Below, one piece after another: positions 42,381-61,982 of a DNA stretch of 64,000 nt. This DNA is from Paratinospora sagittata (taxonomy: Eukaryota > Streptophyta > Magnoliopsida > Ranunculales > Menispermaceae): positions 42,841,741 through 42,905,740 of the forward strand of contig CM069593.1 in NCBI GenBank assembly GCA_035771175.1. The letters run 5' to 3'. A program made the translations under genes and the position numbers. The first letter of the stretch is position 1; every line of letters begins with the position of its first letter. The notes beneath the pieces were generated by a model. It worked only from the letters and a program-made list of their open reading frames with translations. It did not search any database and had not been told where the DNA came from.

Positions 42381-44433
42381 ATTATATTTACTTTAATTAT
42401 TTTTTTTTTTGAGAAGATATAATATTCGTAGTTAGTTGTAATATAACCAGTTTCATCGTCACCACGCTCTTAGAGAGGTATATATTAAGCAAATTCCTGA
42501 TAGAATCTAAAGAAATACTTCCACGTGCTCTCAAGGAATTATAAGCATTTATCACCTCAATCAGTTTCTAATATGTATAGTATTTCTTATTCTTCAAAAC
42601 AATCAGAAAAAGGTACAATGAATATTGCATAAAGAGAAGAAAAAAGCTAAAGATGCAGCAAATCATGAAACTCATCTCATCAAAAATCAAACATGTAGTC
42701 GTGACAGCATTACTCAAATATATATTTAAAAATAAGTAATTAATGTTAAGTAGTTTTTGTTTTAAATAGAAAAATTGTGAAGTTGTGGGAGCAAAAACCC
42801 AATAGAAAACCAACCACCTCATGCCTATGTATCAAATATCGAGCTATGGGCATTGTGTAACGATGTCAACGTGAGATTCATCTTAATAATTGTAGCAGTA
42901 GATTATTTATAAAAAAAAAAATGCTAAAGTAATATTTTAGACACATTCAAAATGTATATTATTATTAAACATTATTAATTCAATGATGTATATAAGTGAT
43001 GTACACTTTAAATATGTACATAGTGGATATCATTAATGTCAATAAAAAAAAAAGCAATAAGGAATCCATCTGCCATGTGAAATAATGGATCGGTTGCTTT
43101 GTTTTTTAACTTTAAATTGGTATTACTGCTAGCACCTACTTTTGTTTGTCTCTTAATTATTACTTGAGATTCCCCTATGTGGCCCATATTCTTTTTTCCT
43201 TTTTTTATTTATTAAGAAATTGTTTTGTCAAAGATTAATGCATATATATATATATATATGGATGTCTTGAAAACCTTTTGTTCCATCAGATTTATAAATT
43301 AATTAGGTTAAATTAAATATTGTTATTAATGAGTTATCATTTGTTTTATTTGAAATTATAGATTAATGATCTTATCATCATCTATCTATATTTGTTTTAT
43401 TCTATCTTTAACTTCATTTTTTGTTTTTTAATTACATAAAATATTTTTTTATTTGCATTGCACTCCGAATTAATACTAATATATATATTGGAAATCTATG
43501 TATCATATATACGTTCGGTTATAAGTATTTATAGTGAAAATGTACTTATTGAGAAACAAGCTTTCAAATATACCTTAATAAGCTGAGAATTTACCAAATA
43601 GCTACAATAACATACATTAGAAAATAATTTTCCAACCCAACAAAAATAATGATAATTAATAATAAATGAATTTTAATAATGCACCCCACAAGCTTAGGAT
43701 GTCCAGATTCAGTTGAATATTCTTTATGTCCATGTGCGGCAACTCATTCATTGGCCACATATATATTATTGATGCTTAGGTAGGCAATAATAGCTATGGT
43801 CTTTTTTCTTTCTTTCAATAATGCACTGAGGAAGGCCACTTGTAAGGCAGGCATTGCTAGCTGATTTGTATAAGTCTATGATATATACATACATTTAATT
43901 ATAAACAACATTAAAATATAAAGTCATGATCTCATAACATAAGATAGGTAATATATTTATTTTCTTATATTGACTTTATCTTTTTTATTTATGACAAGTG
44001 TTGATCGTGAGTTTAAGTGATGGAAAACTTTTTAACATGACGGTAGTACTTAATTATAAGTTATCAATTAATGCACTTATAACATTTAGTACTTAACATT
44101 ATCTTTTTAATAAAATAACCGCTTCCTTTACCATCTCAAATGAGACAATAAGGTTGATCTTTACATTTGAGCTAAACCACACAAGTCAAAATATAGGCGT
44201 GCCAAAAAGACTCGTAAACACAATTAGCTTACGACATGTTATCTACAGCCAAACATGCCGTGATGTAGGTGCGTTGAAAAGATCATTTTTTACTATTTAT
44301 AAATAAGTTAAATCAGACTTAAGCATAAAAGAGTATTATGTGGGCATCCTCACATTAGCAGTCATCTCGTTGTAATAAATTCGTAATTATAGTCTTGTAT
44401 TGATAGTAAACCTATATAAGTTTTAAAAGTTGG
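42381..44433. other. AT-rich spacer without recognised genes
   Basis: I see no coding sequence or RNA gene. TA microsatellites lie at about 43240-43258. A minus-strand ORF at 42568-42822 is hydrophobic and of low complexity without a family match. Confidence 0.5.
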
Positions 44434-44633
44434 TGTTATAATCGGATAGAAAATAGAGAGAGAATTATAGGTTTATCTTCATTGATTGATTCCAATGAAC
44501 AACTAATTACATCCTTAAATAAAAAAATTAAATAAATAAAATATTATTTTCACTTAATGAGTGGGCAACCCTATTCACACTTAGTGGGCGACAACAAAAT
44601 AGTGAGGATATATACAACATATATTATATAACA
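44434..44633 (-). mobile_element. Copia-3 3' LTR, 200 bp
   Basis: On the minus strand it starts TGTTATATAATATATG, preceded by the polypurine-like CAAAGAGGGAG, and ends in CGATTATAACA. These TG...CA ends, the short length and the upstream copia RNase H support a 3' LTR. No target duplication is recognised (its right end has no partner). Confidence 0.65.
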
Positions 44634-44779
44634 CTCCCTCTTTGAATCCCCACTATATGTAGAATATGCCTTAGTTAAAATCTTACTAGAAAAATTCAGT
44701 GGGACAAAATCATAGCGAAGAGAAAAAAAGTACAATGCATTAAACAATAACTCCATTTTAATTCTCCTCCTCAAAAAGA

Positions 44780-45680
44780 CAGGAAAATGTTGTTTCTTTG
44801 CCTAAAAAATCTTTGAGCTTGTCACATCTCAATATTGGATATAATCTTCGATGAGATTGACAAAGCTTTGATAAATAAGTTGCTCGATCATATTTGTTTA
44901 AACTTTAATTTCATCATTATTCTGTAGCTCATGTGTGAAGAAAACCTTTTGTAAAATATATTTGGCTCTGTTGGCTTCAATATGAACTTCTCATAACTGT
45001 GCAATACATGCTGCATTGTCTTCTTATAATATTGAAAGTGAGCCTATGATTGAAGATAATCCACATAATTCTCGAAGTATTATAACTCTCATATACATTT
45101 TCGAATTGCTTAATGAATTGCAATATTTTTCTAGATGATTTGAAGATGTAACAACTATTGTCTGTTTCATAGATCTTTATGATATATCAATATCACCATA
45201 AGTGAAATTGTGCTTGGATCGAGCATAGTGGGGGTCTGACAAATATTTAATATTTACATATTCAACCAGTTTTGACTTTCTCTTTCTTGAATAAAATAGA
45301 CTTTTGTCGCTTGCTTTCTTGAAGATAATATAATACATGTTTAGCACCATTTTAATTTGGTGTAGTATATCCTGCAAGCATGTTAACAGAGAAAAAAATA
45401 TTTGGTTTTGTATATAAGTGCATCTATTGCATCAAGGCATGATCTTCAGGACCAGCTAGCTATTCATTGTTTTAATGAAGGCGAAAATCATTTTTATTTA
45501 CTTTCAGTGATTTTACGTTATTGGGAAATCTAACGGATATGTCTTGTCCAAATGAAATTTCTTCAATAAATTTCTTAATACATTTGATAAATGGACAAAA
45601 ATCCCACTTGAAAATTTTAGGTCTACAGGCCGAGACAAAAATTTATTTTTCCAAGATCTTTCATTTCAAATTCTCCCTTT
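44780..45680 (-). pseudogene. Copia-3 RNase H remnant
   Basis: The minus strand reads YVNIKYLSDPHYARSKHNFT (45190-45260), matching the copia RNase H signature 'YADAGYLSDPHKARSQTGY'. Further along, across stops, come SMKQTIV, SSNHLEKYCN and EDNAACIAQL at about 44985-45025, then FFTHELQNNDEIKV. The order and direction fit a Ty1/copia element (a lineage with SDPHKARSQ), heavily decayed and followed by its 3' LTR at 44434. The catalytic region is not intact. Confidence 0.75.
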
Positions 45681-48407
45681 AAAATATATTTTGATAAACT
45701 CTTCAGGAGTCTTAACATATGCAATAATAAGTAGATAATAAATGAATAAAGTGCATATGCAAATATGATTGTTAGAATACTTACCCATAACAATTATGAA
45801 AATGTATATGCACATTGATCAATATGAATATTAATGCAGTACATACTTCAGGCCTTTTAGATCCTTTAGGGACTATCATGTTGAAGTTTCAAATGTACCT
45901 CATAAATCCTTCAGGGATTTTCACATATATTATCCATGGATTAGTATATTTCCTCATGCATGTCCAACATGATTTATCTCTTTAGGTGTTTGGACTTCTG
46001 GTCCAAATAGCTCTCGATTTTTCAATGAGTTTAACTATATTTGAACTTGCTCCTTTCCACCTTTTCAATGTTGACATTCTTTCATATTTTATGGTTTGGG
46101 ATCCCCATAATATCAAAGGATACTTTAAAATATTGCCAGGAGCAACATTAATATTTTCATTCCATAGCTTCAAATGTGAATAGATTCAAATATAAACGAA
46201 TTGAAAATTCTCTACTATTTATTTCTCTTCAAGAGTATAAATTCTTCAATCCATATCTCTTTATGGGATACGCATACCAATTCAATGTATATTTATTTCT
46301 CAATTTATATCGCATACCACTTCAGGGTATATTTTATTTTTCAATTTATATATCTTCAGGAGATACACATACCACTTCAGGGTATATTTTTCATGCAATA
46401 TTTGTTTGTCAATCCGTTCCTTATTTCAGAATGCTTATACATTTATCAATTATTTGTATGTACCTTCTTCTTTAGGAAGTCGTGTCCTTTGAGTTGACCG
46501 GTCAACCACACTTCAGGTGTGTTATTTGCAAATTGTCCTTGAGGGACTAAATATAAATATATCAGATAATTGATTAGCAAATGATTGATTATGTGAACTT
46601 ATCATTCACTTTTCTTTATCATTTGAACTTTTGGTTCACATTAACTTATAGCTTATATTGCATTTCAATCAATTTTTTCATGTCATTTTTTTGACACTTT
46701 TATTTTCTCTGCCTAATGGTGGGAAGATTGCCTTGCAATGACTTATATTGCATTCTAACAATTTTACATGTCATTCTTTTGAAATTGGCTACTCTCCCTC
46801 TAATGGCGGAAAAATTGTCTCGTAAAAATGTTATTAATGGTCTTCAATCTTGGCCAATATATATTTATGTCAAAGAATTTCTCATTCCTAATCATAAATC
46901 GTGTAATTGACCTCAGAAGCCAAAAATTAAAATGAGAAACATTTTCAAAAATTTGCTTTTACCCAAAATGAAGCAATGTGATATCAATTTTCTATATATC
47001 TTAAAAATTGACCAAGATCTTCTAGATCTACATGTATGCTATAAAATATCACTATTGTGAAATTTTGCTTCATTTGGACAACATAATATTCGCTCTTCTG
47101 GAGCCATGAATATATTTTTAATTTAATATCTTTTCTTTATTGAGGCTTGATAGATCAATCAAATATTTGGTTTATAACAAGTACACGACCAATTCTTTTC
47201 ATTCCACACCTAAAGCAAACACATAGTTATGTTAATATTTGGTTTATTCTGTAAACCTTTATCTTGTGCTACGATAGGATTATTCCATTTCTGGTAGAAT
47301 GGAATTGATCTATTTCAAATATATGGTTGTAATCATATATCAAATTGTCACACCCTGGGTTGCACAGCGTGCCCCCTACCCAGGTGTGGGCGCACCACCG
47401 CAGTGGAGAACGCCTAGCCATAGTACCACATAATATTGTCATATCGTCATGTAGCAACCCAACCGCAGCTGGTCTACATCGAAGCGATTATTTGTCCCTA
47501 CTATTCACTCATGAATAGTAAAGGGTCTCCCCCAGAATCGAACTCGAGACCTCCCTTAAGGAGTCTAATTTCTCAAAATATGTCTTCTTTTTTATATAGT
47601 ACTATCGTGTAACTTTAATATTTTAACATCACATGCAATTCATTATTTGATCATAATAAATTTTGAGTTCATATGATTGTAATATTGCAACTTTAGGTAC
47701 AATTAATTACGATAAACCTTTAAATAAAAGGTTATAAATCTTTCTCATGAGATAAAATAAATAAATTCAAAATGTTAATTCAATTACATCAAATAATTGA
47801 AATTATTAGTTAATCATAAATAATTATTCAATAAAATAAAATGTAATAATGCATTATATTAGCTTCAAGCTAATTTACAAATCCACAAATATGTGGGTTC
47901 CATTAACAAAATCCATGTGATCTTACATGGAATACTATCAAAATAATTATCAATCCAATATAGCTTCTGGATATTGAAATAATATGTTTAACATAACTTC
48001 TAATTATGAGAATATTAAATTCAATATAACTTTTAGCTATGAAAATATTAAATTTTAATATAGCTTCCAGCTATAAAAATAATGAATTTGGATATATATT
48101 GCTACTAACTAGAAAATTATTGTTTTTAATAACTTCAGGTTATAAATTCTTTTCTTCTTCTTTATAACAAAACATCTATATAGTTTCATGCAATACAAAT
48201 TTTTTTACATAGCTTCAGGCTATAAATTCTTGTTCACATGACTTCTGGCCATAACAGACAAAATTCTTTCTCAATAGCTTCAAGCTATAAATACCCTTTT
48301 TCACGTAGATTTGATCTTGCAACTTCGTTGTATTTCATAAAAAAAAAAAATTGGATTAAAAATCACAATATTGACATTTTTTTGATATTGAAATTTCAGG
48401 TACAATC
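45430..48407. repeat. Hairpin array, left part (variable stems, TTCAG-like loops)
   Basis: Many short inverted repeats of 4-7 base pairs share a 5-base TTCAG-like centre but differ in stem sequence. Examples: AAATCC-TTCAG-GGATTT (45904-45920), TTTGGAC-TTCTG-GTCCAAA (45989-46007), ACTC-TTCAG-GAGT (45698-45710), CACAC-TTCAG-GTGTG (46507-46521), TGAAC-TTTTG-GTTCA (46624-46638), GCTC-TTCTG-GAGC (47092-47104), TATAGC-TTCCA-GCTATA (48059-48075), ATAAC-TTCAG-GTTAT (48129-48143), ATAGC-TTCAG-GCTAT (48209-48223), ATAGC-TTCAA-GCTAT (48274-48288). Two copies of ATACC-ACTTCAG-GGTAT lie at 46314 and 46369. No coding function is seen. Confidence 0.7.
47345..47573 (-). repeat. SINE-like element, single-armed copy
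   Basis: On the minus strand GAAATTAGACTCCTTAAGGG leads to a B-box-like GAGTTCGATTC, then ACTATTCATGAGTGAATAG, and the element ends in GGGTTGCA...CACAACCCAGGGTGTGACAA-like sequence, the same as 1336-1401. It lacks the inverted front arm of the copy at 1111. It interrupts the hairpin array. Confidence 0.75.
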
Positions 48408-48630
48408 TAACAATGTTTGTAAAACCACCACACTTCTGTGGGGTTGAGTTTTTCATTTATATAGACGTATACAAAACAGAGTAGAGTTTGAATACAGAGA
48501 TAAAATAGGAAAGATAACTGCAAATGGAAACCGTATAACAAATAAAAGGAAACCGCATAAACTAAACTATATCTCCTATACTCAAGGAGGATTCCGTAAA
48601 TCAAGAACTGATTTACTGGAATTCTCTACA
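48408..48630 (-). repeat. Copia-4 3' LTR
   Basis: On the minus strand it starts TGTAGAGAATTCCAGTAAAT and ends in ACAAACATTGTTA. The termini are TG...TA rather than TG...CA. The polypurine tract GCTTGCGGGGGGC lies just before it (48631-48643). Confidence 0.88.
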
Positions 48631-48677
48631 GCCCCCCGCAAGCTAAGAATGGGATTAACACAAACTCGTAACTTGGA

Positions 48678-49298
48678 TCAAAAGAAGACATAGAAATCCC
48701 GTGAGACATTCTTGGTGAAAACGTCAGCCAGTTGTAAGTGAGACGTAACATGCTGAAAATGAAGAGTGCCAGCAACAACAAGCTCACGGAGAAAATGGTA
48801 ATCAAGGTCGATGTGCTTGGCGCGCTTGTGGGACACGGGATTGGAACTCAAAAAAATTGCACTCTTATTGTCACAAAGAAGGAGAGGCCAGTGAGTTAAA
48901 GTAACTCGAAGATCTTGTAGGAGATGAGTGAGCCATAAGACTTCAGCAGCAGCAAGGGTGAGAGTTCGGTACTCGGATTCGCAGCTGGAACGAGAAACTG
49001 TCGGTCGTTTCTTGGCACTCCAAGAGACAAGATTATTGCCAAGAAAAATTGAGTATCCAGAGGTGGAGCGTCTAGTGTCCAGGCAGCCAGCCCAATCATC
49101 GTCCGAGAATGCAACTAAGCCCAGTGAAGATAAAAAAGTGAAATGGAGACCAAAATTAAGTGTTCCTTTAACATAGCGAATGATTCGCTTGACTGCCTGA
49201 AAGTGAACATCAGTAGGCGCATGAAGAAACTGACTTACAGAGTTGACTGAATGGGCAAGATCAGGACGCGTGATCGTTAAATACTGCAAGGCTCCCAC
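48678..49298 (-). pseudogene. Copia-4 RNase H
   Basis: This encodes the RNase H that removes RNA during reverse transcription. The frame of 206 residues reads MGALQYLTITRPDLAHSVN, VKRIIRYVKGTLNFGLHF, VAFSDDDWAGCLDTRRSTSG (catalytic Asp in SDDDWAG), SRSSCESEYRTLTLAAAEV (catalytic Glu), LLCDNKSAIFLSSNPVSHKR and KHIDLDYHFLRELV. All catalytic acids are kept and the domain is open to its stop. It is joined to the reverse transcriptase through a frame change at about 49298, so it is intact as a domain but not as part of one polyprotein. Confidence 0.9.
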
Positions 49299-50188
49299 TA
49301 AGGAGTACCGTCAGAGAAGAGTCGTTGAGAGACAATCGTGGGAGTTTTAACCGGTTTGCTATCCAACAATTGAGCACGGGCCAAAACATCAGTAGCATAT
49401 TTAACTTTGCTGAGGAAAAGACCGTCTGGTGTGGAAGTTGCCTCTAGTCCAAGAAAATAATTTAGCGGACCTAAGTCCTTGACAACAAATTTAGAGTGCA
49501 GCTGGAAAATAAATCGGTTAATGAGAGCAGGGTTATTTCCAGTGAGTATGATGTCATCAACGTAAAGGAGGAGATAAATAAGATCATCCTGCCTATTAAA
49601 GACAAATAAAGAAGTGTCCCCGCGGTTGCAAAAAAAACTAAGTTTTAGAAGGAATGAACTAAACTGTCGAAACCAAGCACAGGGTGCTTGTTTCAAGCCG
49701 TAGAGGGCCTTCTTTAATTTGCAAACATGAAGGGGATGGCGAGGATCAACATAGCCCGGGGGCTGCTCCATATAGACAGTTTCATGAAGAATGCCATTGA
49801 GGAAAACATTTTTTACGTCAAGTTGACGTATGGACCACTTGTGAGACACAGCGCCAGAGAGGACAACACGAACTGTGGAGGCTTTGACCACGGGACTGAA
49901 GGTATCCGTGTAATAAATACCGGAAAGTTGAGTGTAGCCCTATGCAACGAGGCGAGCTTTGAAGCGCTCAATGGATCCATCGAAAAGAAATTTAGTCCGA
50001 AAAACCCATTTGGAACCGACAATATTGGTGTTGAAGGGCCGGGGAACAAGATCCCAAGTATCATTGGTTTGAAGCGCCTTCATCTCTTCATCCATAGCAG
50101 CAAGCCAAGCTGGGTTTTTGGCAGCTGATTTAAATCCCTTAGGCTTAGAGGTGGCAAGCAGTGCATGGATCAATGGAAAAGACTGCAC
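49298..50188 (-). pseudogene. Copia-4 reverse transcriptase
   Basis: This encodes Ty1/copia reverse transcriptase. The first frame (49940-50188) reads NPAWLAAMDEEMKALQTNDT and VGSKWVFRTKFLFDGSIERF to KARLVA, followed by a TAG stop where the family has Lys. It resumes GYTQLSG...YTDTFSPVVKAST and 197 residues with IRQLDVKNVFLNGILHETVY, KKALYGLKQAPCAWFRQF, and the catalytic LLLYVDDIILTGNN at about 49540-49581. A frame change near 49298 separates RNase H. One nonsense change and one frameshift are the visible lesions. Confidence 0.9.
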
Positions 50189-50189
50189 A

Positions 50190-51155
50190 AGGCTGAGATG
50201 CGCAGGATGCCGTGGCTTGAAAATTCATGATTTTGAGCGTGTAGTCATGGGATGAGAGTCAGAAGGAGCTGATGAAGTAGTGGCTTGTATCGGGTCCATG
50301 GGAGCTGCATGAGGAACCAAGTCCGTAGAAGTTGCAGGTGTAGGCGAGATTGCAGCAGATGCGGATGTTGTCTCCGTAGCAGAAGAAGTAACCTGCAAGG
50401 GCTCAACAGCAGAGTCATCTGCACAAAAATGACAAGGAGAAGAAGGGACCTGCGTAGTAGTAGGAGAAGATGTGCTAGGAGATGGTTCAAGGACGCAGGG
50501 TTCAAAAAAATGTGAAAAATCAATATCAGCAAGAGTAGCGGCACTGGAAGTATTTGAAAAAGGAAAAAAATTCTCATCAAAGCGAGCATGTCGTGTAATA
50601 TATGTGTGAGAAGTTATAGGATCAAAACAACAGAAGCCTTTATGTGAGGAACTATAACCAAGAAAAATACACGGTAAGCTACGGGGAGAAAATTTGTGAG
50701 GTGCATAATCACGTAGGCGTGGGTAAACTCGACAACCAAAGGGATGGAAATTCTAATAATTAGGAGACTTACCAAATAAAACTTCAAAAGGTGAAAGACC
50801 ACCAAGAACAGGCATAGGCAGCCGGTTGATAATGTAGGTTGCTGTGCTGAAAGCGTCAACCCAATGCCGAGGAGGAACGTGGGAGTGAAAGAGGAAAGCA
50901 AGGCCAGTTTCTGTCACATGACGATGTTTGCGCTCAGCTCTACCATTTTGGGAAGGAGTATATGGGGAAAGACATTTGGTGATGGATGCCAAATTGTTGA
51001 AGATACGATTGAAAACGATTGCTTATAAATTCGGCGCCACCATTGCTTTGAAAAATTTTGATTTTGGTAGAGTATTGATTTTAAACCAATTTTTGAAATT
51101 GGAGGAAAATATCAAAAAAATTGGATTTTAATTTCATTGGATAGAGCCAAGTAAA
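50190..51155 (-). pseudogene. Copia-4 integrase C-terminal part and linker
   Basis: The core continues from the Gag-Pol frame with frame changes between 50992 and 51155. The second catalytic position, usually QSDGG, reads QSNGG (51040-51054), so Asp is replaced by Asn. The Glu region is kept in YTPSQNGRAERKHRHVTETG, then PPRHWVDAFSTATYIINRLP. After a stop at about 50753 it continues GCRVYPRLRDYAPHKF and GYSSSHKGFCCFDP, then a Ser/Thr/Pro-rich linker ending HPMTTRSKS (about 50230). The Asp loss alone should abolish integration. Confidence 0.85.
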
Positions 51156-52692
51156 TCAAGAGTAATCATCGATAAATAACACATAATAGCTAAATCCCAA
51201 ATTAGATTTGACGGGAGCGGGACCCCAAATATCGCAATGGATGAGACCTAAAATTACATTAGATCGAGTAGTATTCGGGGAATAAGGCAAGCGATGGCTC
51301 TTAGCGAGTTGACAAGTAGAGCAAAGAGATTGATTAGGCAACAAAGAAGTAAGAAATAATTGTCCTTTTTTATTCAAAAGAGATAAAATAGAGTGATTTA
51401 CATGACCAAGGCGAGCATGCCATAATTCAAAGGAAGCATGTAAATTCTTATTTCTAAGGACAGAAACAAATGCAGAGTTGCCACGTTCCAGCACATACAG
51501 CCCACCTTCTCGTTTACCTTTTGCCACTGTCTTTCTTGTTACTCGATTTTGTACAACAAAATGATCATGAGAAAAAGTGACAAAGAGAGGAAAGTCAGAG
51601 GTCAGTTTGCTGATGGACAACAAGTTTTTGGTAAGACGAGGAACAACAAGAACATCTAAAAGCTGAAAATTGGGAGAGGGAGAGAGCGTTCCAGTGTGTG
51701 TAATAGGAAGAGAAGCACCATTGCCTATTATTGCACAGTCCTTACCATGATATGGCTCAACCTTGTCTAACTGAGAAGGGTCAGGGATCATGTGAGCGAA
51801 AACACCTGTATCAGTGAACCAATCAGATTTCAAGCCATTTGAGAGGGAACATGCTGTGGTGAAAGCTTCAGCAAGTTGTGTCGTAGGTTCGGCATGATCA
51901 TAACGGCTCCTGCAACTATTAGCAGTGTGACCTTCAGTCTTGCAGATTTGACACAGAGCGGTATTGGAGCCCCGTTTACCACGTCCATGGCCATGGCCTC
52001 CATTGTGGCCGCCGCGAGAACGACGAGACTTGGAGGAACTACCACCACGAGATGGAGGAAGAAACCCGTTGGTGGCAATAAAAGCAGCAGAGGAAATAGG
52101 AGAGGAGGACCCGAGTGACTTCTGGAAAATCTCAAGGCTTTCAGCTTTGGGAACCAAGTCTTTGAAAGCTGGTAATAGAGTGAGAGACATCTGGGCAGTA
52201 GAAAAATTAGCAAAGTCAGCGCCCAATCCTCTGAGATACCAATGAACTTTGTCTGTATCATCAACCGAGCGGCCCATTGCAGTGAGTTGGTCGCATAAAG
52301 CCTTAAATGAACGAGAATATTCAGTGACACTTCGGGTGCCACGTTTGATGAGTTGCAAATCATCTTTGATGCGAAGCTCACGAGTTTTAGAAATATGGCT
52401 GAAGGAATTTTCCAAAGCAAGCCAAACATCACGAGCGGTAGTGAGACCAAGGACTTCAGTCATGGCTTCTTCAGTCAACGAGGAGAAGAGAAGACTGAGA
52501 AGACGTTGATCTTGAAGTTGCCATTCCACATATTTGGAATTCGATTGAGATGAGGAAGAATGAGAGGCGATGGTGGTTGGAGGTGCTACAACTGAACCAT
52601 CGACATGGCTAAGGAGGTTCTGTTATTGAAGAAAGGGGAGAAGTTGATTTCGCAAGAGAAGATAATTTGTGGAGGAGAGTTTAATAGTAACC
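51156..52692 (-). pseudogene. Copia-4 Gag, protease and integrase N-terminal part
   Basis: Gag begins near MVTIKLSSTNYLLLRNQLLP at about 52691 and meets a stop after FLQ (about 52623); the long frame of 457 residues starts at 52529. It contains the UBN2 Gag core (TARDVWLALENSFSHISKTR, VTEYSRSFKALCDQLTAMGR), an Arg/Gly/His-rich basic stretch, an intact zinc knuckle CQICKTEGHTANSC, protease WFTDTGVFAHM with DTG kept, the pre-integrase LWHARLGHVNHSI, the zinc pair C-x2-C in SLCSTCQLAKSHRLP, and the first catalytic Asp in IHCDIWGPAPV. It stops at FIDDYS. Apart from the early stop it is well kept. Confidence 0.9.
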
Positions 52693-52765
52693 ATGTGGAT
52701 CATGGTGTTAAAGGAGAAAAAAGAATAGGGGATCGAGGAGGTTAATCCAAAGAAGTCAGATACTA

Positions 52766-52988
52766 TAACAATGTTTGTAAAACCACCACACTTCTGTGGG
52801 GTTGAGTTTTCCATTTATATAGACGTATACAAAACAAAGTAGAGTTTGAATACAGAGATAAAATAGGAAAGATAACTGCAAGTGGAAACCGTATAACAAA
52901 TAAATGGAAACCGTATGAACTAAACTATATCTCCTATAATCAAGGAGGATTTCGTAAGTCAAGAACTGATTTACTAGAATTCTCTACA
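52766..52988 (-). repeat. Copia-4 5' LTR and primer site
   Basis: Same length (223 bp) as the left LTR. On the minus strand the internal region starts TAGTATCTGACTTC directly after the LTR end; this is an imperfect iMet-like primer site (TGGTATCAGAGC). Confidence 0.85.
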
Positions 52989-52993
52989 CAATC

Positions 52994-53175
52994 AACCATA
53001 ATAAATCTTTCTATTAAGTTTTAGCTATAAAATATTCTTTTCTCTGAATAGCTTCAAGCTATAAAATATTTTCGTCACCACATTTTTCCATATGAATCAA
53101 TATATAACAACATAGCTTCGAGCTATGAACAAAATATATAAAATAATTCTTACATAGCCTTTAGCTATGTAATTC
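52994..53175. repeat. Hairpin array, right part
   Basis: The pattern of the left part resumes after Copia-4: ATAGC-TTCAA-GCTAT (53048-53062), CATAGC-TTCGA-GCTATG (53111-53127) and CATAGC-CTTTA-GCTATG (53153-53169). The exact CAATC target duplication shows that both parts were once continuous. Confidence 0.75.
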
Positions 53176-53252
53176 CAATAAAATATATCAAATAAAAGAA
53201 CCTACCTCATGCAATAAAAATATGTGATGCTTACTGCAATTTACCTATTACG

Positions 53253-53338
53253 TTCTAGATAGGTAATCTCCTTGATCATAAATGAATATTATCTTTTCTA
53301 GATAGGTAATCTCCTTGATCATAAATGAATATTTTCTG
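53253..53338. repeat. 43-bp tandem duplication
   Basis: TTCTAGATAGGTAATCTCCT... occurs twice in direct succession (53253-53295, 53296-53338), nearly identical. Confidence 0.9.
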
Positions 53339-54399
53339 TGAAAGTGGTACTGCTGCATGTGGTGACATCCGGTAGGTCAACCTTAATTGGTGTCATTTTT
53401 AACACCATTAATACCATTATAATGGGGTTCTCATATTTTAAATATCCCTCCTTTGGGTGGGGAAAAATAAAATATGAATAAAGGTGTCGCGCGCCACGTT
53501 TATTTTAATTGGTCTTTTAAGTCTAGGTGTGTCACAAGTCTAGCTGAGAGTTTTCAAAAATTAAAGGTCACCGATGCATTCATAAATAATTTTCATAATA
53601 AAAGAAATTTTAATATACCTTTTGACGTATCTTTTTGGGTGATGAAGTGACAGTCACCGGTGACGATTCAGCATGCATCCTATAGTTGCTTCAATTTAAG
53701 CATTATAGCCGCAATGCTTTCTTATCCTTTCCCCCAACTCCACCAAGCTGTCAATTACCATCAACCTATTTCAATAATTGTCGTCGTCGTAGTTACACAC
53801 CACACGGTGCCACTTATATCTTTACCCGATCCAATTGTAAAACCACTTTGGTTATAATAATATAATTTTGGGCCATTAACTTTTGTCTCCTCTGCAAAAC
53901 CACCATATGATCTTCAAACGTGGTTTAGAAATTTCCTGAATCACTCCTAAAAACCGCCTTGATTCTCCTTTTTTTTATTCTCATTTTGTTTTATTTTTTT
54001 GTCTTTTTCACCGACCAACAAAAACACCTTTCTTTTTTTCTTTTTTTCTTTTTTTCTTTTTTTCTTTTTTTCGTCTTTTGTGCACCCTATCTCCTTCTTT
54101 TTTCATCCACCAAACAACCCTACTATTAGACCATATACAGAATATAAGACATGTCAGCTACGCCAGATATACCAATTTATTCTGAATAAAGAATATCAAT
54201 CTACTCATTCATGTAAGGCATATTCTCATTTGGGTCCATCTGAAAAATGCAAAAAAAAAAACATATGATTATCCAAATATTTCTATTGCAATAGACATAT
54301 GTACATTTTCACACGTCAAAATGAAACATAATTATAAGCATGATAATTACAGAGTTTCATTTTTAGTATTATTAATAAATAATTCTGGATATCTATGTT
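53339..54399. other. Spacer with TTTTTTTC microsatellite
   Basis: No gene recognised. An 8-base TTTTTTTC repeat lies at about 54030-54073. 53460-53530 holds a GC-richer piece (GTCGCGCGCCACG). This region may include the decayed LTR of Gypsy-3, but I cannot place ends. Confidence 0.4.
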
Positions 54400-55284
54400 T
54401 TATATCATTTTCCAATTATCACGTGGCCTTTTTTATACCATGATGCTTCCACAATACTTTGACAAGCGAAATAGCTTCTTTGTCGAGTCTTTGTATCCAA
54501 AAATTATATTGGTCTTTCTTGGTACTTACTCTCTTCCTTAATCTAGACATATGTCTAGGCGACAACTTAAGAAGGGTCAATATAATAATTTCACAGTATG
54601 GAGACGTGGGAAACATCATGTAGTCTTGCCATTGAAAAATTTAATTGATACGCGACCGCTCCAATCCTTTGTTTAATTTCAAAGGGCCTATAAATCTTGG
54701 AGATAATTTCCTTTTGTTCCAAATTGATGGACTCCTTTGATAGGTTGTACCTTTATGAATACCATATCTCCGACTTGAAACTCCAGAGGGTGTCTGTATC
54801 AGTCCGCATAGCTTTTATGCCAACTTTGAGTTATACATAGTTTTTCCTTGATTAACTGAATCTTTTCACTTGTTTCCTTAATTATCTCAAACCTCGGTCC
54901 TATTCTTATTTATCGGTCATCTCTATTCATAAGATTATATCAAAGTCTTCAATGTTCAGAACTAAAGGGTTTACGAAGAAAGATTCATCACACATTCTAA
55001 GTTCACATTTGAAGCATAACTATGTGATTTCTACCCTTGGTGTGGTTACCATCATTTTAGGATTTAAAGGTTCAATTTCTAACAATTGTACTATGGAACA
55101 AGTAATGAATGAATGGTTGGATCCCTGTGAAACAATACTCAAACTTTGGAGTTAAATAAAGGAAATTTACCTTCAATCACAGTAGTGTCAATTTGCTCAT
55201 GTGTCGTGGCGGCAACTGTTTTGCCTTGATTTTGCTGCCTTAGCACATTATACTGATTTGTTTGAACTGTTGTTCGAGTTTGAC
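54400..55284 (-). pseudogene. Gypsy-3 remnant: protease joined to integrase C-terminus
   Basis: On the minus strand the right side (55000-55200) reads THEQIDTTVIEGKFPLF and, through stops, PLVLNIEDFDIIL, like a gypsy protease. It is followed at about 54900 by KETSEKIQLIKEKLCITQSW and then YRHPLEFQVGDMVFIKVQP and KLSPRFIGPFEIKQRIGAVA, the integrase C-terminal domain. It ends with ISLVKVLWKHHGIKKAT (54419-54475), the chromodomain-proximal tail typical of gypsy. Reverse transcriptase, RNase H and the integrase core are missing between them, so the element carries a large internal deletion. It is cut on its right by the Gypsy-4 LTR. Confidence 0.78.
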
Positions 55285-57403
55285 TGTCACGACTCCCCCT
55301 CCAGGTGACGTCATGATCGGCACAGTACCCCAGATAATGTCACAACCTGACAAAAACAAAGGCACTGCTAAGCTCTGCGTGGAAAGTACCTAATAAACTC
55401 AAATACATAACTTGTATATGTTCAAAATAATTGAATCTAAAAATATAAAATCTTTTCCATATCATCATCATAATTTTCCAATATTCAATAATCCTCAAAA
55501 TCAACAGGGAATTTAAAACAAAAGTCTATCATATACAGTCTAGAGAACCACATCTACCTATGTCTTATATACACGAGTACTTGTGATATTTATATACAAA
55601 ATCAAAATAAAAAAAATGAGTAAACTAGCCCCAGTTTTCCCAATATACATAATCCAAACCTACATTCAAAAAGAGAAGAAAAGGAAGACTGCGAGCTTTA
55701 TGCTTTGACCTTTCCTTTCTGATCTGAACCTGAGAAAAGTAGGAAAAATGGGATGAGCTTAACTAGCTCAATGAAAAGTTCTCACAATATATCTCCATGT
55801 ATGCATTTATATAAAACACGTATGATATTGAAAATCTCATTCATAAAACAAATGCATCAAGATAAATCATATTATACGTGTGTCCAAACTAAACATGTGA
55901 TTTATGCATTATTTCCATAAGAATCAAATTTTCAGACTCTTTACCAAAAAGATATATCAAAATAACACATGTCTGTACTTCCCCTATTGGCCAATAGGTT
56001 CCGACCGGCTCATTACCTGACACTAATCCTCCTAATCTTTCTACCCTTACATTGCTCAGTGATTCGGAAAGTCCTTTCTACAGAACACTAACCCAAGTAT
56101 ACCGACGGTATATTTCCCTGAAGAACAAGTAAATAGAAAGACAACAATGGAAATCAAAGGTGAGAAATACTCACAACCAATTCACTAGCCAATTAAACAC
56201 ATCATTTACATCCCAATTGGCCAATCGATTCACATACACCTGAAATGAATCAATTCTATACACCAATAATCAATTTCAAGTCATTATGACCAAATACATA
56301 AGCATTAACCCAAATCACCTCTAATCCACACCAATTTGGATTAGAAACACTAAACACCATTCAATTGACCATTTCTAATCTAATTGCCTCAAAAGCCCAA
56401 AATTAGGAAAATCTCTACATGGTCCAACTAAATTAAAAACCACATTATACCATAGGATCCATCAAATTGGCTCAATGCTTAGATAAAGTATGTCATAAAC
56501 ATCAATATAACCCAAATGCACACAATTTGCACACCTAAATCACCATAAATTCCATCAAAATCCACATACATGCCAAATTTCCATTTATACAAGTTAAACT
56601 CGTAAATAACATGGAAAACCACCATTAAAGCACGTATAACATGTCACGACGCCCCTGACGTAGGCTGACGTCATGACCGGCACAGTATACTATACACTGT
56701 ACATACCCATATACAGTATACAATACACTGTCAGCCTCAACGAACATTCACAATAATTCCCACAATTTCTAAACATTTTGACAGCATCTCAACTCACATT
56801 TTTTTTTTCCTGATATATCACAAATCAAATCCAAATCATTCCATTCATTCACACATATAATTATACATATCAAAATAACAAAAATATAACCTATTTCCTT
56901 CAAGCATACATACACATACCAGACAAAGGCTCATGTGATTATCACTCACGGATTTTTCCTTTTCCCTTCGACTCAATACCTGAAATATTGGAGGAAATGG
57001 AGTGAGCAAACAACAGCTCAGTGAATATAGTTCTTGAGATGACAATTATATACATTTAGAAAAATATGACATTTAAAATCATTTCAAACACTTATTCACA
57101 CATGCATCATTCAACGAATATAATATACATGTCAACAACATAAATGGCATGAGTTTTCAATAACACAATGCACAATCTCCCTCCTCCTCAAGGCAAGAGA
57201 GCGAGTCTAACCCTTGTATGGCAGTTACAAGGTAGCCACCGCCTCTCCTTACCCAATACACAGTCATTTCAAGGATCGCAACCCTTGTTATGACAGACCT
57301 ACGGGGTGGTACACAACAACTCCAATCAATAGAATCAAACCACAAAATTGGTAGGTGAGGGTTTGAAATTTTGAAACCCTAGCTAAACCCCAATCTCCTG
57401 CAT
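55285..57403 (-). mobile_element. Gypsy-4 3' LTR (minus orientation), interrupted and truncated
   Basis: On the plus strand it starts TGTCACGACTCCCCCTCC and follows the right LTR (61983 onward) closely. It lacks about 137 bases near 56150 present in the right LTR at 62850-62985, is split by a 672-bp solo LTR at 56642, and stops at AAACCCTAGCTAAACCCCAA, after which Pol sequence follows directly. The first part of the LTR in the element's own direction is therefore deleted. Confidence 0.85.
56642..57313 (-). mobile_element. Solo LTR of the Gypsy-2 family, internally deleted (672 bp)
   Basis: It starts TGTCACGACGCCCCTGACGT and ends in TACGGGGTGGTACA, both like the Gypsy-2 LTR ends, but the middle of that 1911-bp LTR is missing after 'GACAGACCTA'. 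Flanks TAACA (56637-56641) and CAACA (57314-57318) form a 5-bp target duplication with one change, and the uninterrupted site is seen in the right Gypsy-4 LTR at about 63475. Confidence 0.87.
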
Positions 57404-58600
57404 CTGATCTTCAAACTCCCAGGTTTGCTATTCATTATCGTGGAACTGCCATTTGACTTGAACCAAATGAATTTCTTTATTCCTGAGCTTTTTAATTCTA
57501 CGAGCCATAATCTGAATAGGTTGTTCCACATAAGTTGCATCCTCCCCAACTTGAATTTGAGAAATGTCAACCGTAGATACATGGTCGGGGTCTGCATTAT
57601 ACATCCTCAACATAGACGTATGAAGTACATCATGGACTCCAGCAAGTTGAGATGGTAGAGCAATCCTATAGGCTAAAGAACCTATCTCTTAAGGACTTTA
57701 AATGGCCCAATAAAACGAGGAGAAAATTTTACTTTCACACCAAATCACATTTGCCCTTTCTGTTGAGAGACCTTCAATAAAACCTAATCTCCCACAACAA
57801 ACTCTAATAGCCTGTGACGTCTGTCGAAGTAGCTCTTTTACCGATCCTGAGCTACCTTCAACCTTGCCCTAATCTGCTTAATCTTCTCCGTCTGTGCTAC
57901 CATTGCTTCTGGCCCCACCAACTGTGTCTCTCCCACTTCAAACCAACAAGTAGAAGATCTACAAGGTTGCCCATAGAGAGCCTCAAAAGGTGTCATACCA
58001 ATGCTAGCCTGAAAGCTATTATTATAAGCAAATTCACATAGATAAAGATATTCATTCCAACTCTCACCAAACTCCAAAATACATGACCTGAGCATATCCT
58101 CCAGCATCTGAATAACCCTCTCAGACTGTCCGTCCGTCTGAGGGTGAAATGTCGTGCTGAGACAAAACTGAGTTCCCATCTGTTTCTGCATCACACGCCA
58201 GAAACTCGAAGTAAAATGCGGATCTCTATCCGATACAATCGAAACAGGAACTCCATGAAGTCTCAGAATCTCTCGAAAGTATAATCTACCCTGAGACCTA
58301 GGAAGTCCCATAATAAAATCCATCGTGATATGCTCCCATTTCCATTTCAGAATAGGCAATGATCGCATTTGCCAAGACTTTGTTGTTCAGCTTTCACCTG
58401 TTGACACACTCCACACTTCCGAACATACTCGGCTATGTTTTTCTTCATCCCATGCCACCAAACTGTACGTTTCATATCATGGTACATCTTGGTCGCTACG
58501 GGGTGCATAGTGTACTGTGATGTATGTGCCTCACGAAGTAACTCATCTCCCAACTCTGGATCATATGGAATCCATAGCCTCCCCTGAAATCTCAAAATGC
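57404..58600 (-). pseudogene. Gypsy-4 integrase with core deletion, and Pol C-terminus
   Basis: This encodes integrase on the minus strand. The zinc domain reads LLREAHTSQYTMHPVATKMY and CGVCQQVKAEQQ, giving the HHCC ligands. The core starts WKWEHITMDFIMGLPRSQ with the first catalytic Asp, then jumps to LYFREILRLHGVPVSIVSDR: roughly 35 residues normally in between are missing. The second Asp (SDRDPHFTS) and the Glu region (HPQTDGQSERVIQMLEDMLR) are kept. The C-terminal part, split by stops, reads LHTSMLRMYNADPDHVSTVD and EIHLVQVKWQFHDNE, ending WEFEDQMQEIGV next to the truncated LTR. Confidence 0.88.
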
Positions 58601-59500
58601 CATTTGTATATCTCGACCAATCGACACGATCAACACTGCCAGCCCAAGCATCAAATATCCCAAAATCTGGACTATGTTGCTACAAATATCTGATCCTCTG
58701 AATATGAGTGTTCGACAGCTGTGCCCGCACCTAAGCACAAACATCCAAAGATGGTTCAACAGAACATATACTCATCATCAAGATCCTCTCCAATAATCGT
58801 CACTCATGGGCCATCTAATAAGATATAACGCTTGTTTCAGCCTGTTTCCTGCTCAATGCATCGGCAACAACATTGGCTTTCCCAGGATGATACTCCAATG
58901 CGAAGTCATAATCCTTAAGAAATTCAAGCCATCTACGTTGTCTCATGTTCAATTCCTTCTGATCAAACAAGTATTTCAGACTCTTATGATTAGAATATAA
59001 TGTGAACCTTTCGCCATATAAATAATGTCCCCAAAGCTTCAGAGCAAAAACTGCTGCCGCCAACTCCAAATCATGAACTGGGTAATTCTTCTCATACACT
59101 TTCAACTGTCTAGATGCATACGCAACAACTCTGTCGTCCTGCACCAGAACACAACCCAATCCTGCATGAGATGCATCGATATAAATCACAAACTCTTGCC
59201 CACATTCTGGAAGTACCAAAACAGGTGCGGTGATAAGTTTTTTTTCAACTCTGCAAAAGCTTCTTCACAGGCATCGATCCACACAAAAAGAACGTTCTTC
59301 TGGGTTAACTTAGTAAGTGGGCTAGCTAACTTCGAAAAGTTTTGCACAAACTTTCTGTAGTACCCAGCCAAACCTAGAAAACTCCTAATTTTCGTCACTG
59401 TGGTCGGTCTTGGCCAATTAATAATCGCCTCAACCTTAGCAGAATCAATAGAGATACCATTTGCACTAACCACATGACCCAAAAATTTCACTTCTGAAAT
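58601..59500 (-). pseudogene. Gypsy-4 connection and RNase H
   Basis: The minus strand reads [40 protein letters not shown] and [20 protein letters not shown] (59260-59491), then after a frame change [20 protein letters not shown] (catalytic Asp), [40 protein letters not shown] and [20 protein letters not shown] (58820-58900). Usual 'TDHKSLKY' is SNHKSLKY here. The 134-residue RNase H frame is open. Beyond it (58601-58815) the linker to integrase contains stops. Confidence 0.88.
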
Positions 59501-60219
59501 CCAAAACTCACACTTGCTGAGCTTAGCATACAGCTTAGGCTCCCTTAATGTCTACAATGTAATCTTGAGGTGTTGCTCGTGCTCCTCACATGTTTTGAAA
59601 TATATCAAAATATCGCAATGAAGACAACGATGAAGTGATCTAGATACGGTCTAAACACTCTCTGCATCAAATCCATGAACATCGCGGGTGCATTCGTCAG
59701 CCCGAATGGCATGACCAGAAATTCATAGTGACCATATCTCATCCCGAAGGCAATCTTCGGGACATCTTCTTCTCTAATCCTCAACTGATGGTAGTCTGAT
59801 CTCAAATCAATCTTAGTGAAAAACTTTGCACCACTTAATTGGTCAAATAGATCATCAATGCGAGGTAAAAGATATTTATTCTTCACTGTTACCTTCTTCA
59901 ATTGTCGGTAATCTACACACAGTCTAAGACTCCCGTCTTTCATCTTCACAAAAAGAACTGGTACTCCCCGAGGTGACATGCTAGGGGAAATTAACCCTTT
60001 GTTCAAAAACTCTTCAACCTGCACCTTGAGTTCTTGGAACTCCTTGGACGCCATTCGATAAGGTGGAATGGAGATAGGTTTTGTACCAAGAATCAATTCA
60101 ATGATGATGTCAATTTCCCTCTTGGGTGGTAACCCAGGTAAATCATCAGGAAATACATCGAAAAACTCACTTACTACTGGAAAATCAGATATCAGAATAT
60201 CTTGACCTTTCTCCTCCAA
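59501..60219 (-). pseudogene. Gypsy-4 reverse transcriptase, frameshifted in the catalytic box
   Basis: The 204-residue frame begins in the linker ([20 protein letters not shown]) and continues [60 protein letters not shown] and [20 protein letters not shown]. It then reads FIVVFI followed by AIF and a stop: compared with the family's FIDDIL, one base is missing in the codon for the first Asp (about 59613), shifting the frame through the active site. The rest of the thumb is readable in the next frame. The single-base loss alone inactivates the enzyme. Confidence 0.9.
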
Positions 60220-60800
60220 TGGCCTTCTACATCAGCAGCCAGCTTGCCTCGAGTAGGTGGTCTGGTAGTAGTCATACCTCGGTAGACAAAAGATGGCTGC
60301 CCAAGGATATGAAATACAATTTTCTTATGAAAGCAATCCACTTGAGCATGATACGCCGCTAACCAATCCATACCCAAAATAGTATCAAAATTGAGGAACT
60401 CTAACACCCTAAGGTTTACAATCATCTCAAGTCCCTCATATTTGACAACACAATTCATACAAGTCATATCTGAGTAGATTCTCTGACCCGTAGCCGTACT
60501 CAAAATCATAGGGGTACTAGCTCTAACAACAGGCAATTTAAGTCTATCTACCACATGTCCAGATATGAATGATAAAGTAGAACCAGAATCAATCAATACA
60601 TGCATCATCATATCACAAATAGAAATCATGCCCTCTATTAAATTCTTGTTGGCATCAGGATCTAGTTTTGTCACTGCCTTAGCTTGCTCCCTTGTACCAG
60701 ATGCTGCAGAAATAGCTGAAGCAGAAGGTTGCCTCAGCATAGAACATTGATTAGCCTTGTGGCCTTTCATACCACATATGAAGCAAGTAATAGAGGTCTT
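60192..60800 (-). pseudogene. Gypsy-4 zinc knuckle and protease
   Basis: The minus strand reads CFICGMKGHKANQC (about 60740-60785), an intact C-x2-C-x4-H-x4-C zinc knuckle closing Gag. Protease follows with MHVLIDSGSTLSFISGHVVD (catalytic Asp in DSGS) and FDTILGMDWLAAYHAQVDCF. The domain is open over 192 residues and overlaps the frame of the reverse transcriptase linker at 60192-60219, so a frame change separates them. Confidence 0.88.
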
Positions 60801-61765
60801 AGTCCTGAAGATGCAGTCTGTGACTAAGTCTGTGATCTAACTGTAGTTTGATCTCCCTTACTAAACACTACTGGAGCAGATGCCACAGAAACAGGAGCAA
60901 CAAAAAAATCAACCCCAGAAAATCCACCACTAGCTTTGGGCTTCTTGCTATCATCCCAAAACTTCTTGTTCCATTTTTTCTTTTTCTTTTTCTTCCCCGA
61001 AGATGAAGAAGATGAATCAGAAGGAAATACAGGTATTAGTGGAATAGTCATCGTCTTAGACCTAGCTGTAGCCTCAGCAGTCTCAAAATCCATAGCCTGC
61101 CTCAAGGCCTGATCATAAGTCGACACACCAACCAATGCCAAACCTTGTCTGATCTGATCCCTAAAACCATCCTCAACTCATCAGTAGGCACTAACTCTGG
61201 AGTAAAGAGTGGGAGTCTATTGAACTCATATTCATACTCTCGAACTGATTTACTACCTTGAGTCAACTAAATGAACTCATTCTGCTTCCGATGAACCTCT
61301 TACCGCGGGTAATAAGTAGTATAAAACAGCTCTTTGAATCTAGTCCAAGACTTAATCTCACCAGGAGATCTCTGAGTAGTTTCCCACCATCTATCAGCCC
61401 CATCAGTCAACTTAAATCTAGCCAGACGAATCTTATCTCTATCTAGAGCTTGCATATCGTTGAAGATGACTTCCATGCGCAGAATCCAACACTCGGCATC
61501 CTTAAGCCTTCATTACTTTCTCATACTGTTTCTTCTCCGCGACGTCCTCACCGAACTCGGGAGTCGGTACTCTAGTCTCAACAGGAGGAGTAACAGCCAC
61601 GACACCAACACTATTAGTGCCCACACCCTGAACAACAGGTGTATCCACACGCGGCCTGTCTTGCTGCAGCTTGGTGATCATCTCAACAAGTTGAGCATTT
61701 TGCTGCTGCTAAATAGCAAACATTTCCTCCAGCTTCTTAAGCCTATCCTGATCGGTAAGGTCCAT
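60801..61765 (-). pseudogene. Gypsy-4 gag
   Basis: Gag starts at ATG 61765 on the minus strand (MDLTDQDRLKKLEEMFAI, then a stop) about 200 bases after the primer site. The capsid core is readable in a second frame as LARFKLTDGADRWWETTQRS and SWTRFKELFYTTYYPR, followed by VREYEYEFNRLPLFTPELVP, the Retrotrans_gag signature. The C-terminal part (60824-61141) reads YDQALRQAMDFETAEATARS and a Ser-rich plus Lys-rich stretch (SSSSSGKKKKKKKW). Several stops and frame changes separate these parts. Confidence 0.85.
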
Positions 61766-61965
61766 TGCTAACCCTGATTAGTTTTGCCCTTCTTCAGAAA
61801 ACTGAAATTCCAATGGGCAACAATACATCAAATAGGGTAGCATACAATGGATAGCATTAACATAATCTAACTACCCATACAATACCCACACATTCAATCA
61901 TAACATTATAAGGCTTTTATCTTTCTTAAAAATTTTACAACCTAACCATAGGTATCCTAAACTTA

Positions 61966-61978
61966 GGCTCTGATACCA
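61966..61978 (-). other. Gypsy-4 primer-binding site (tRNA-iMet)
   Basis: On the minus strand TGGTATCAGAGCC follows the LTR end GTGACA-ATAT. It matches the plant iMet site fully. Confidence 0.9.
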
Positions 61979-61982
61979 ATAT

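Follow-up and report, generated by a model that had tools for sequence, protein, structure and literature searches.

Short hairpins with a shared C-YNGAA-G core in a decayed Ty1/copia derivative of Paratinospora sagittata: candidate dispersed signals read through the loop

According to the packaging-signal model, as set out in the available part of its source, many dispersed stem-loops share a coat-protein recognition motif in the loop (PMC6281560), and for hepatitis B virus (HBV), a reverse-transcribing virus, RGAG loops are described as packaging signals (PMC7612645, likewise available in part). For the retrotransposon Ty1, the available excerpts of the papers cited report that Gag binds structured genomic RNA and, in competition, prefers RNA with the packaging signal (PMC8396678), that the packaging sequences are located in the 5'-terminal 580 nt (PMC4974528), and that the RNA contains a pseudoknot (PMC8396678) and kissing loops (PMC5454406). 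Our search of the open-licence literature found no description of loop-specific hairpin arrays in a long terminal repeat (LTR) retrotransposon. Here we describe such an array in the plant Paratinospora sagittata (Menispermaceae), carried by a decayed, LTR-type derivative of a Ty1/copia element. The window analyzed is a stretch of 64,000 nt (assembly GCA_035771175.1, contig CM069593.1, positions 42,841,741 to 42,905,740 of the forward strand); all coordinates refer to it, and "sense" means the reading direction of the element, the minus strand of the window.

An earlier note made from the letters of this DNA, here called the original prediction, had claimed at least 15 short inverted repeats over about 3.2 kb and had suggested comparing them with dinucleotide-shuffled sequence. 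The claim was borne out by that comparison. In the array as counted (45430-48407 plus 52989-53175, 3,165 nt, an inserted Copia element being excluded), 15 hairpins had a stem of at least 4 bp around a 5-nt TTCNN loop on the plus strand, against a mean of 0.66 and a maximum of 5 in 2,000 dinucleotide shuffles of the same 3,165 nt. Twelve had stems of at least 5 bp (mean 0.21, maximum 3) and six of at least 6 bp (mean 0.07, maximum 2); all 12 in the former set carried a TTCNR loop (mean 0.10, maximum 3). With any 5-nt loop, 21 hairpins with stems of at least 5 bp were counted, compared to about 7.3 in shuffles, and once those with GAA in or beside the loop were set aside, eight were left (mean 7.25 for all loops). 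Loops of 7 nt were also over-represented (19 vs. 7.3), with nine left without GAA. Because removal of the GAA loops leaves the expectation, we place the excess in loops reading GAA in sense and TTC on the plus strand. Counts for loop lengths 4 and 8-12 were near the shuffle expectation; the 13 hairpins with 3-nt loops were equalled by 10 of 300 shuffles and the 11 with 6-nt loops by 27 of 300.

The motif is oriented, with 15 NNGAA loops with stems of at least 4 bp on the minus strand of the array and none on the plus strand. This corresponds to 4.74 per kb, compared to 0.00-0.20 per kb per strand in window 1-44400 and 54201-64000, where 14 NNGAA hairpins were found in total, both strands summed. 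No NNGAA hairpin with a stem of at least 4 bp occurs on either strand of the inserted Copia (48408-52988), nor does any of the 17 NNGAA sites at 44601-45429, in the RNase H end, have such a stem. The original prediction gave every stem a 5-base centre, most often TTCAG. In the ATACC hairpins, however, the loop is 7 nt long (ACTTCAG), and at 46629 (TTTTG), 46471 (TTTAG) and 46539 (TTGAG) the centre has drifted. As had also been proposed, this is not one tandem repeat: the stems are paired yet different around one common loop.

We then asked how closely the stems are tied to the loop. In the window copy, a stem of at least 4 bp was present at 13 of 21 C-NNGAA-G sites but at only 6 of 66 C-N5-G sites with other loops (Fisher p = 2.8e-6), and in the background (window 1-44400, both strands) at 2 of 41 C-NNGAA-G sites (p = 1.8e-6 against 13 of 21). 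When nine array copies were pooled, which are related and hence not independent, such stems were found at 67 of 164 C-NNGAA-G sites, compared to 57 of 492 sites that were C-closed around another loop. The excess was seen in all 10 array copies tested (29-64% of seeds with such stems, 4 to 13 C-closed hairpins each); in the flanks of eleven loci, none of 20 C-NNGAA-G sites had one. Among 74 GAA hairpins from the nine copies, the closing pair was C-G in 67 and the first loop letter C or T in 70, while the pair next to the closing pair varied (A-T 24, G-C 22, T-A 22 and C-G 6). The sense-strand motif can therefore be written stem-C-YNGAA-G-stem', in which the loop and the closing pair are constrained while the stem may have any sequence. 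Of the 15 GAA hairpins counted with stems of 4 bp or more, seven belong to the ATAGC/ATAAC/ATTAGC type; the other eight stems (GGTTTA, GCTC, AGATC, GAAT, CACAC, TTTGGAC, AAATCC and ACTC) look mutually unrelated, and five of these reach at least 5 bp, against 0.10 expected. A family of foldback repeats, one of the readings first offered, does not fit: stems are not reused outside the ATAGC-type tail, and what repeats is the element in its entirety.

The array forms the internal region of an LTR-type element present in many copies, a non-coding descendant of Ty1/copia that decayed, underwent internal deletion and kept multiplying. In the 1.29 Gb genome the array region is a dispersed repeat: one query returned 687 candidates, of which 40 were scored and all 40 were matches, a second returned 1,629 (40 scored), and the LTR alone returned 176 (40 scored, all 40 matches). 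Two copies, L010 and L011, which are near-copies of one another (99%), have direct repeats with a 156-nt core, 96-97% identical and 6.1 kb apart. Among 13 loci self-compared (10 kb each), only these two showed a clear LTR pair; in L017 a direct repeat of 151 nt is 79% identical, in L020 the repeat of about 190 nt is inverted, and the remaining loci showed no clear repeat pair at the element ends within 10 kb. The L010 LTRs are 177 and 195 nt long with ends TGTTAT..ATAACA, and the pentamers next to them, a possible target-site duplication, are ACATG before and ATATG after and match at four of five positions in this one copy. Read by eye, a polypurine-tract-like sense run, AAAGGGGGAG, adjoins the 3' LTR, and a primer-binding-site-like stretch follows the 5' LTR, TGTTATCAGCACGATG, which would fit an initiator methionine primer-binding site. 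From the L010 repeat ends and these two stretches, the element reads on the minus strand of the window.

The longest stop-to-stop frames in six copies reach at most 201 amino acids, and we rejected the array itself as protein-coding, as none of 11 frames scanned matched a Pfam family above the cut-off. A search of window 44400-54400 against Rfam 15 gave no match above the curated gathering score. We call the host a Ty1/copia derivative because of DNA comparison with better-preserved relatives in the same genome, designated L061, L063, L064 and L065. L061 is identical to the array element at 832 of 1,182 aligned positions (about 70%) and matches in more pieces, with internal gaps; L063 matches several shorter pieces upstream in the array copies, and L065 the stretch around a zinc-knuckle-like sequence. 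One piece of L061 matches RVT_2 (2.8e-13) and one of L063 matches gag_pre-integrs (1e-7); a 281-amino-acid L061 frame on the RNase H side had no Pfam match.

Two of the three coding relatives examined over pol carry such hairpins, a few of them at the same sites, beyond what protein constraint accounts for. L061 and L063 each have four NNGAA hairpins with stems of at least 4 bp (shuffle means 0.27 and 0.22), whereas their reverse strands gave none; the sense strand of L064 has no such hairpin. When codons were shuffled synonymously 1,000 times, the observed counts were reached in 1 shuffle for L061 and in 6 for L063, the latter in segments other than those of the pooled test and partly in a frame later read differently. 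Pooling L061, L063, L064 and L065, with frames chosen by eye and an L063 stretch of unclear frame omitted, gave seven C-closed hairpins compared to 0.80 under synonymous shuffling (0 of 300 shuffles reached seven; maximum 3). In the same set, any 5-nt loop with a stem of at least 5 bp (15 vs. 8.0) and 7-nt loops with stems of at least 6 bp (7 vs. 2.8) were each in excess (3 of 300 shuffles), and loop lengths 4 and 6 were not. Hairpins of the coding relatives align onto array hairpins at 45910, 47096 and 47247, and at 46539 in two of five copies (the window and L024); at the 45996 site, L064 has a 10-bp stem with the loop CAATT and A-U where the array copy L014 has G-C. From the aligned sites together with the synonymous shuffles, we infer that some hairpins are older than the decay and that protein sequence is insufficient to explain them. 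The hairpins exceed chance and are not specific to decayed DNA, since the coding relatives have hairpins of this kind too.

We propose that the hairpins may act in cis, as sites on the single-stranded nucleic acid of the element itself, either genomic RNA or complementary DNA (cDNA), whose loops are recognized by a protein or by another strand. They would already have been present in the coding ancestor, and would have been retained and multiplied in a non-autonomous derivative that depends on proteins supplied in trans. Their most likely role would be that of dispersed, low-affinity Gag-binding sites for packaging or assembly, and a derivative competing for another element's particles would profit from extra sites. 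We put the probability of a loop-read cis signal, most plausibly dispersed packaging or assembly hairpins, at roughly 0.36. For selection of loop-read hairpins, on whichever strand, our estimate is slightly more than one half, and for the packaging version, argued by analogy, about a third. A wider proposal, that the copia lineage has a hairpin code (C-YNGAA-G) running through gag-pol and read at assembly or reverse transcription, of which the derivative would be a hairpin-selected packaging parasite, is speculative and rather doubtful. Of the readings first offered, selection for the structure of an RNA has the best support, though it falls short of proof. If the packaging version were true, the dispersed-signal model, drawn up for small RNA viruses and for HBV, would also take in LTR retrotransposons, and the array would suggest how non-coding LTR derivatives gain transport in trans. 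Coding and non-coding relatives in one genome also form a natural experiment, in which protein and nucleic-acid constraint are separable.

What weighs against this loop-read reading comes from Ty1, from the copies, from folding and from the coding relatives. In Ty1, internal deletions of at most 5 kb did not significantly affect transposition, according to the available part of the paper (PMC4974528). The array contains tandem stretches of 34 nt and 40 nt, and part of its tail is tandem duplication. Covariation among the copies is at best marginal. It was assessed in 27 of 28 aligned copies (L011 being omitted as the near-copy of L010), over 78 pairs and 1,632 cells from 15 of the 18 hairpins found, three having been dropped for bracket problems; the tail alignment took in 34 of 36 tail matches (L013 and L048, under 350 nt, left out). 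Paired cells made up 91.3% of the total, compared to 91.1% in shuffles. Four pairs had changed on both sides (6.1 in shuffles), as had 16 cells, a count reached by 13 of 500 shuffles (10.7 ± 2.7); further pair types numbered 35 (38.9 in shuffles), and the covariation score was 0.062 vs. 0.059 (16 of 500). Slid partners were paired in 17-44% of cases, with the caveat that the structure came from the same sequences. Loop columns were also less conserved than the remainder (0.803 vs. 0.855); in favor of the reading, stem columns were slightly better conserved (0.876) than both the flanks (0.867) and the remainder. Of the compensating change first suggested, a few clear swaps remain: G-C 13 and A-U 9 at one pair of helix 12 (45996), C-G 19 and U-A 4 in helix 6 (46512), U-A 7 and C-G 2 in helix 4, and one A-U in helix 2. 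At 48134, ATAAC/GTTAT is aligned with ATAGC/GCTAT in L017, L018 and L024, though it is uncertain which units correspond within the repetitive tail. Across the 27 copies, however, covariation barely exceeds the shuffles, and the stem halves mostly decay independently, which is part of what the original prediction had named as evidence against itself. Little covariation is expected, since the copies are presumably dead and decaying singly; as covariation does not carry the case for selection, that case rests on loop specificity and the coding relatives.

Pairing could also arise without selection, if reverse transcriptase switched template across a quasi-palindrome and copied one arm from the other. 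Such palindrome-making would account for stems that are paired yet different without any function, and several traits of the copies agree with it: at 45451 part of the copies are one base shorter than L061 and L064 after CCTGAAG, with TGGTC/GACCA in register (e.g., in L014); the 45996 hairpin has a 7-nt duplication of its 3' arm in one subfamily (L017, L018, L024, L054 and L056); and the tail has multiplied in tandem. However, template switching should ignore the loop, yet GAA loops have stems far more often than other C-closed 5-nt loops, hairpins with loops of 4 or 8-12 nt are not over-represented, and recent copies break pairs and do not mend them. We regard it as unlikely.

The loop-read reading also has to contend with the folding of the two strands. 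In local context, the antisense strand folds better, with a mean pair probability of 0.67 compared to 0.47 for sense and with 9 of 15 hairpins above 0.9 compared to 6 of 15; 7 of the 15 fell below 0.1 in sense, six of them in the tail. Over 26 windows of 120 nt, the mean folding z was -0.83 for sense and -1.32 for antisense (two other regions of the window gave -0.29 and -0.50). The hairpins might thus have been selected as antisense-strand structures, in antisense RNA or first-strand cDNA, with the loop C-UUCNR-G, in which a U-R pair would leave a three-base loop; the C or T at the first sense-loop position in 70 of 74 hairpins would permit that pair as U-A or U-G in antisense. That letter would, however, also be left by a proline or leucine codon preceding glutamate, the difference in folding is modest, and we know of no antisense transcript of the element. 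Non-standard pairs in the tail lean towards sense (67 G-U in sense vs. 40 in antisense, in related copies), and those in the head are nearly equal (117 vs. 114); G-U/A-C asymmetry as a test of strand was rejected as not decisive, since the head is equal, the tail sense-leaning and the copies related. Selection on the antisense strand appears slightly more unlikely still.

The coding relatives invite another explanation, namely that GAA codons, often after proline or leucine and before GNN, together with palindromic codon neighborhoods, were inherited by the decayed copy as a by-product of protein coding. In translations read by eye, GAA is a glutamate codon in 5 of 8 L061/L063 hairpins, and for L063 alone the synonymous shuffle already has a mean of 0.96. 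However, GAA is out of frame at GSGRA and MNQKF (L063), LRKRE (L061) and VYRIN (L065), and because this concerns 3 of the 8 L061/L063 hairpins and that of L065, the motif is not merely a codon. Protein-preserving shuffles gave 0.80 hairpins vs. seven observed, and the array has hairpins unseen in the coding relatives and no long frame. C-NNGAA-G seeds had stems of at least 4 bp in 3 of 5 cases in L061, 4 of 6 in L063 and 0 of 9 in L064, and the bare seeds of L064 count against both the by-product and the loop-read reading. Two further points tell against the latter: the TGAAC hairpin of L063 looks like the one in the array at 46629, yet the alignment puts it about 25 nt from there, and hairpins of the coding relatives are not clearly better retained in the array, at 0.83 Watson-Crick pairing, than control hairpins with other loops, at 0.73 (p = 0.07; seven of nine GAA hairpins placed, one of them at a neighboring site, and eight L064 controls omitted). 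A coding by-product seems less probable again. Least of all would we credit a few chance hairpins spread by tandem duplication and element dispersal, which would suit the seven ATAGC/ATAAC/ATTAGC-type hairpins of the 15 and the 34-nt and 40-nt stretches but is very improbable given the eight unrelated stems, five of at least 5 bp.

Table 1. Features of the array element in the window, hairpins written in sense as stem/loop/stem.
Feature	Position	Strand	Remarks
Host element LTR (3' LTR in sense)	44434..44633	minus	aligns to L010 direct repeats; recovered by LTR query
Decayed copia RNase H / reverse transcriptase (RT) end, no array hairpins	44667..45430	minus	~70% DNA identity to coding L061
Hairpin array part one: decayed RT, integrase-side pieces, gag side	45430..48407	minus	
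ACTC/CTGAA/GAGT	45698..45710	minus	helix 15
AAATCC/CTGAA/GGATTT	45904..45920	minus	helix 13; coding L061 has AAATCC/ATGAA/GGATTT
TTTGGAC/CAGAA/GTCCAAA	45989..46007	minus	helix 12; 9 bp in L014
ATACC/CTGAAGT/GGTAT	46314..46330	minus	7-nt loop; inside tandem stretch
ATACC/CTGAAGT/GGTAT (second)	46369..46385	minus	
CACAC/CTGAA/GTGTG	46507..46521	minus	helix 6
GTCC/CTCAA/GGAC	46535..46547	minus	window copy aligns to TGTCC/CCGAA/GGACA of coding L063
TGAAC/CAAAA/GTTCA	46624..46638	minus	helix 5; drifted loop; CAGAA or TAGAA elsewhere among copies
AGATC/TAGAA/GATCT	47015..47029	minus	helix 3
GCTC/CAGAA/GAGC	47092..47104	minus	coding L063 has GCTC/CGGAA/GAGC
GGTTTA/CAGAA/TAAACC	47241..47257	minus	coding L065 has AGGTTTA/TAGAA/TAAACCT
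ATTAGC/TTGAA/GCTAAT	47858..47874	minus	
TATAGC/TGGAA/GCTATA	48059..48075	minus	inside 34-nt tandem stretch
ATAAC/CTGAA/GTTAT	48129..48143	minus	
ATAGC/CTGAA/GCTAT	48209..48223	minus	
ATAGC/TTGAA/GCTAT	48274..48288	minus	
Inserted Copia, outside the array	48408..52988	minus	direct repeats 48408-48630 / 52766-52988, 223 nt, 96%
Hairpin array part two, past inserted Copia	52989..53175	minus	
ATAGC/TTGAA/GCTAT	53048..53062	minus	
CATAGC/TCGAA/GCTATG	53111..53127	minus	
TTACATAGC/TAAAG/GCTATGTAA	53150..53172	minus	drifted loop

Several observations concern individual sites and neighbors of the array (Table 1). In L017, L018, L019 and L024, a TATCTC/NNGAA/GAGATA hairpin lies between the ATACC-type units. 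We rejected the idea that an insertion had given rise to the 47020 hairpin: of three alignments, that of the window copy alone shows extra bases at this place. Positions 47346-47576 in the array act as a separate dispersed repeat: in L021, and partly in L012, the stretch aligns at another place, and for some copies the alignment is interrupted at its borders. L010, L011 and L014 run on without the inserted Copia at the corresponding site; the LTRs of that Copia hold, by eye, the palindrome CCACA-CTTC-TGTGG, whose CTTC centre resembles the array motif. Beside the 5' LTR in L010 and L011, the stretch L010:8850-9540 has a 201-amino-acid open frame without a Pfam match and is possibly a captured gene piece. 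The L062 stretch, upstream of coding L061, has no similarity to copia or to the array element; the L061 copy may be interrupted or truncated. Elsewhere in the window, another element of LTR type occupies 55285-63555; its minus strand has frames resembling gag-pol, and its direct repeats are 91-96% identical and 6.2-6.8 kb apart. A tandem array of the 12-nt unit TTCACATCACTG with 24/36-nt multiples lies at 23934-24083 and is similar to one at 17654-17721.

The array can be set beside four kinds of described system. Like foldback repeats and miniature inverted-repeat transposable elements (MITEs), it has inverted repeats at many places, but its stems mostly differ and are 4-9 bp long, and it is the element as a whole that repeats and not the hairpin. 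A repeat of the foldback/MITE type was therefore rejected, the copies aligning over 1.6-5.1 kb of a single element. Large retrotransposon derivatives (LARDs) have internal domains of conserved structure. The array element resembles these and other non-autonomous LTR elements in being flanked by LTRs, about 6 kb long and present in many copies, with no intact open reading frame found, and since there are many such copies it was probably mobilized in trans. It differs from LARDs in its short LTRs (those of L010) and in an interior that is recognizable as decayed copia gag-pol with loop-specific hairpins. With Ty1 it shares the copia type and would share, by analogy, a Gag that binds structured genomic RNA, whereas Ty1, so far as the available excerpts describe, has its pseudoknot and kissing loops and no repeated loop motif. 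The closest likeness, judged from the available parts of the sources, may be to the packaging signals of MS2, satellite tobacco necrosis virus (STNV) and HBV, which like the array are many short, dispersed stem-loops of varied sequence with a common loop motif. Unlike those signals, the array lies in a plant copia-derived LTR element, and has the loop YNGAA, and not all of its hairpins are predicted to form in the sense RNA.

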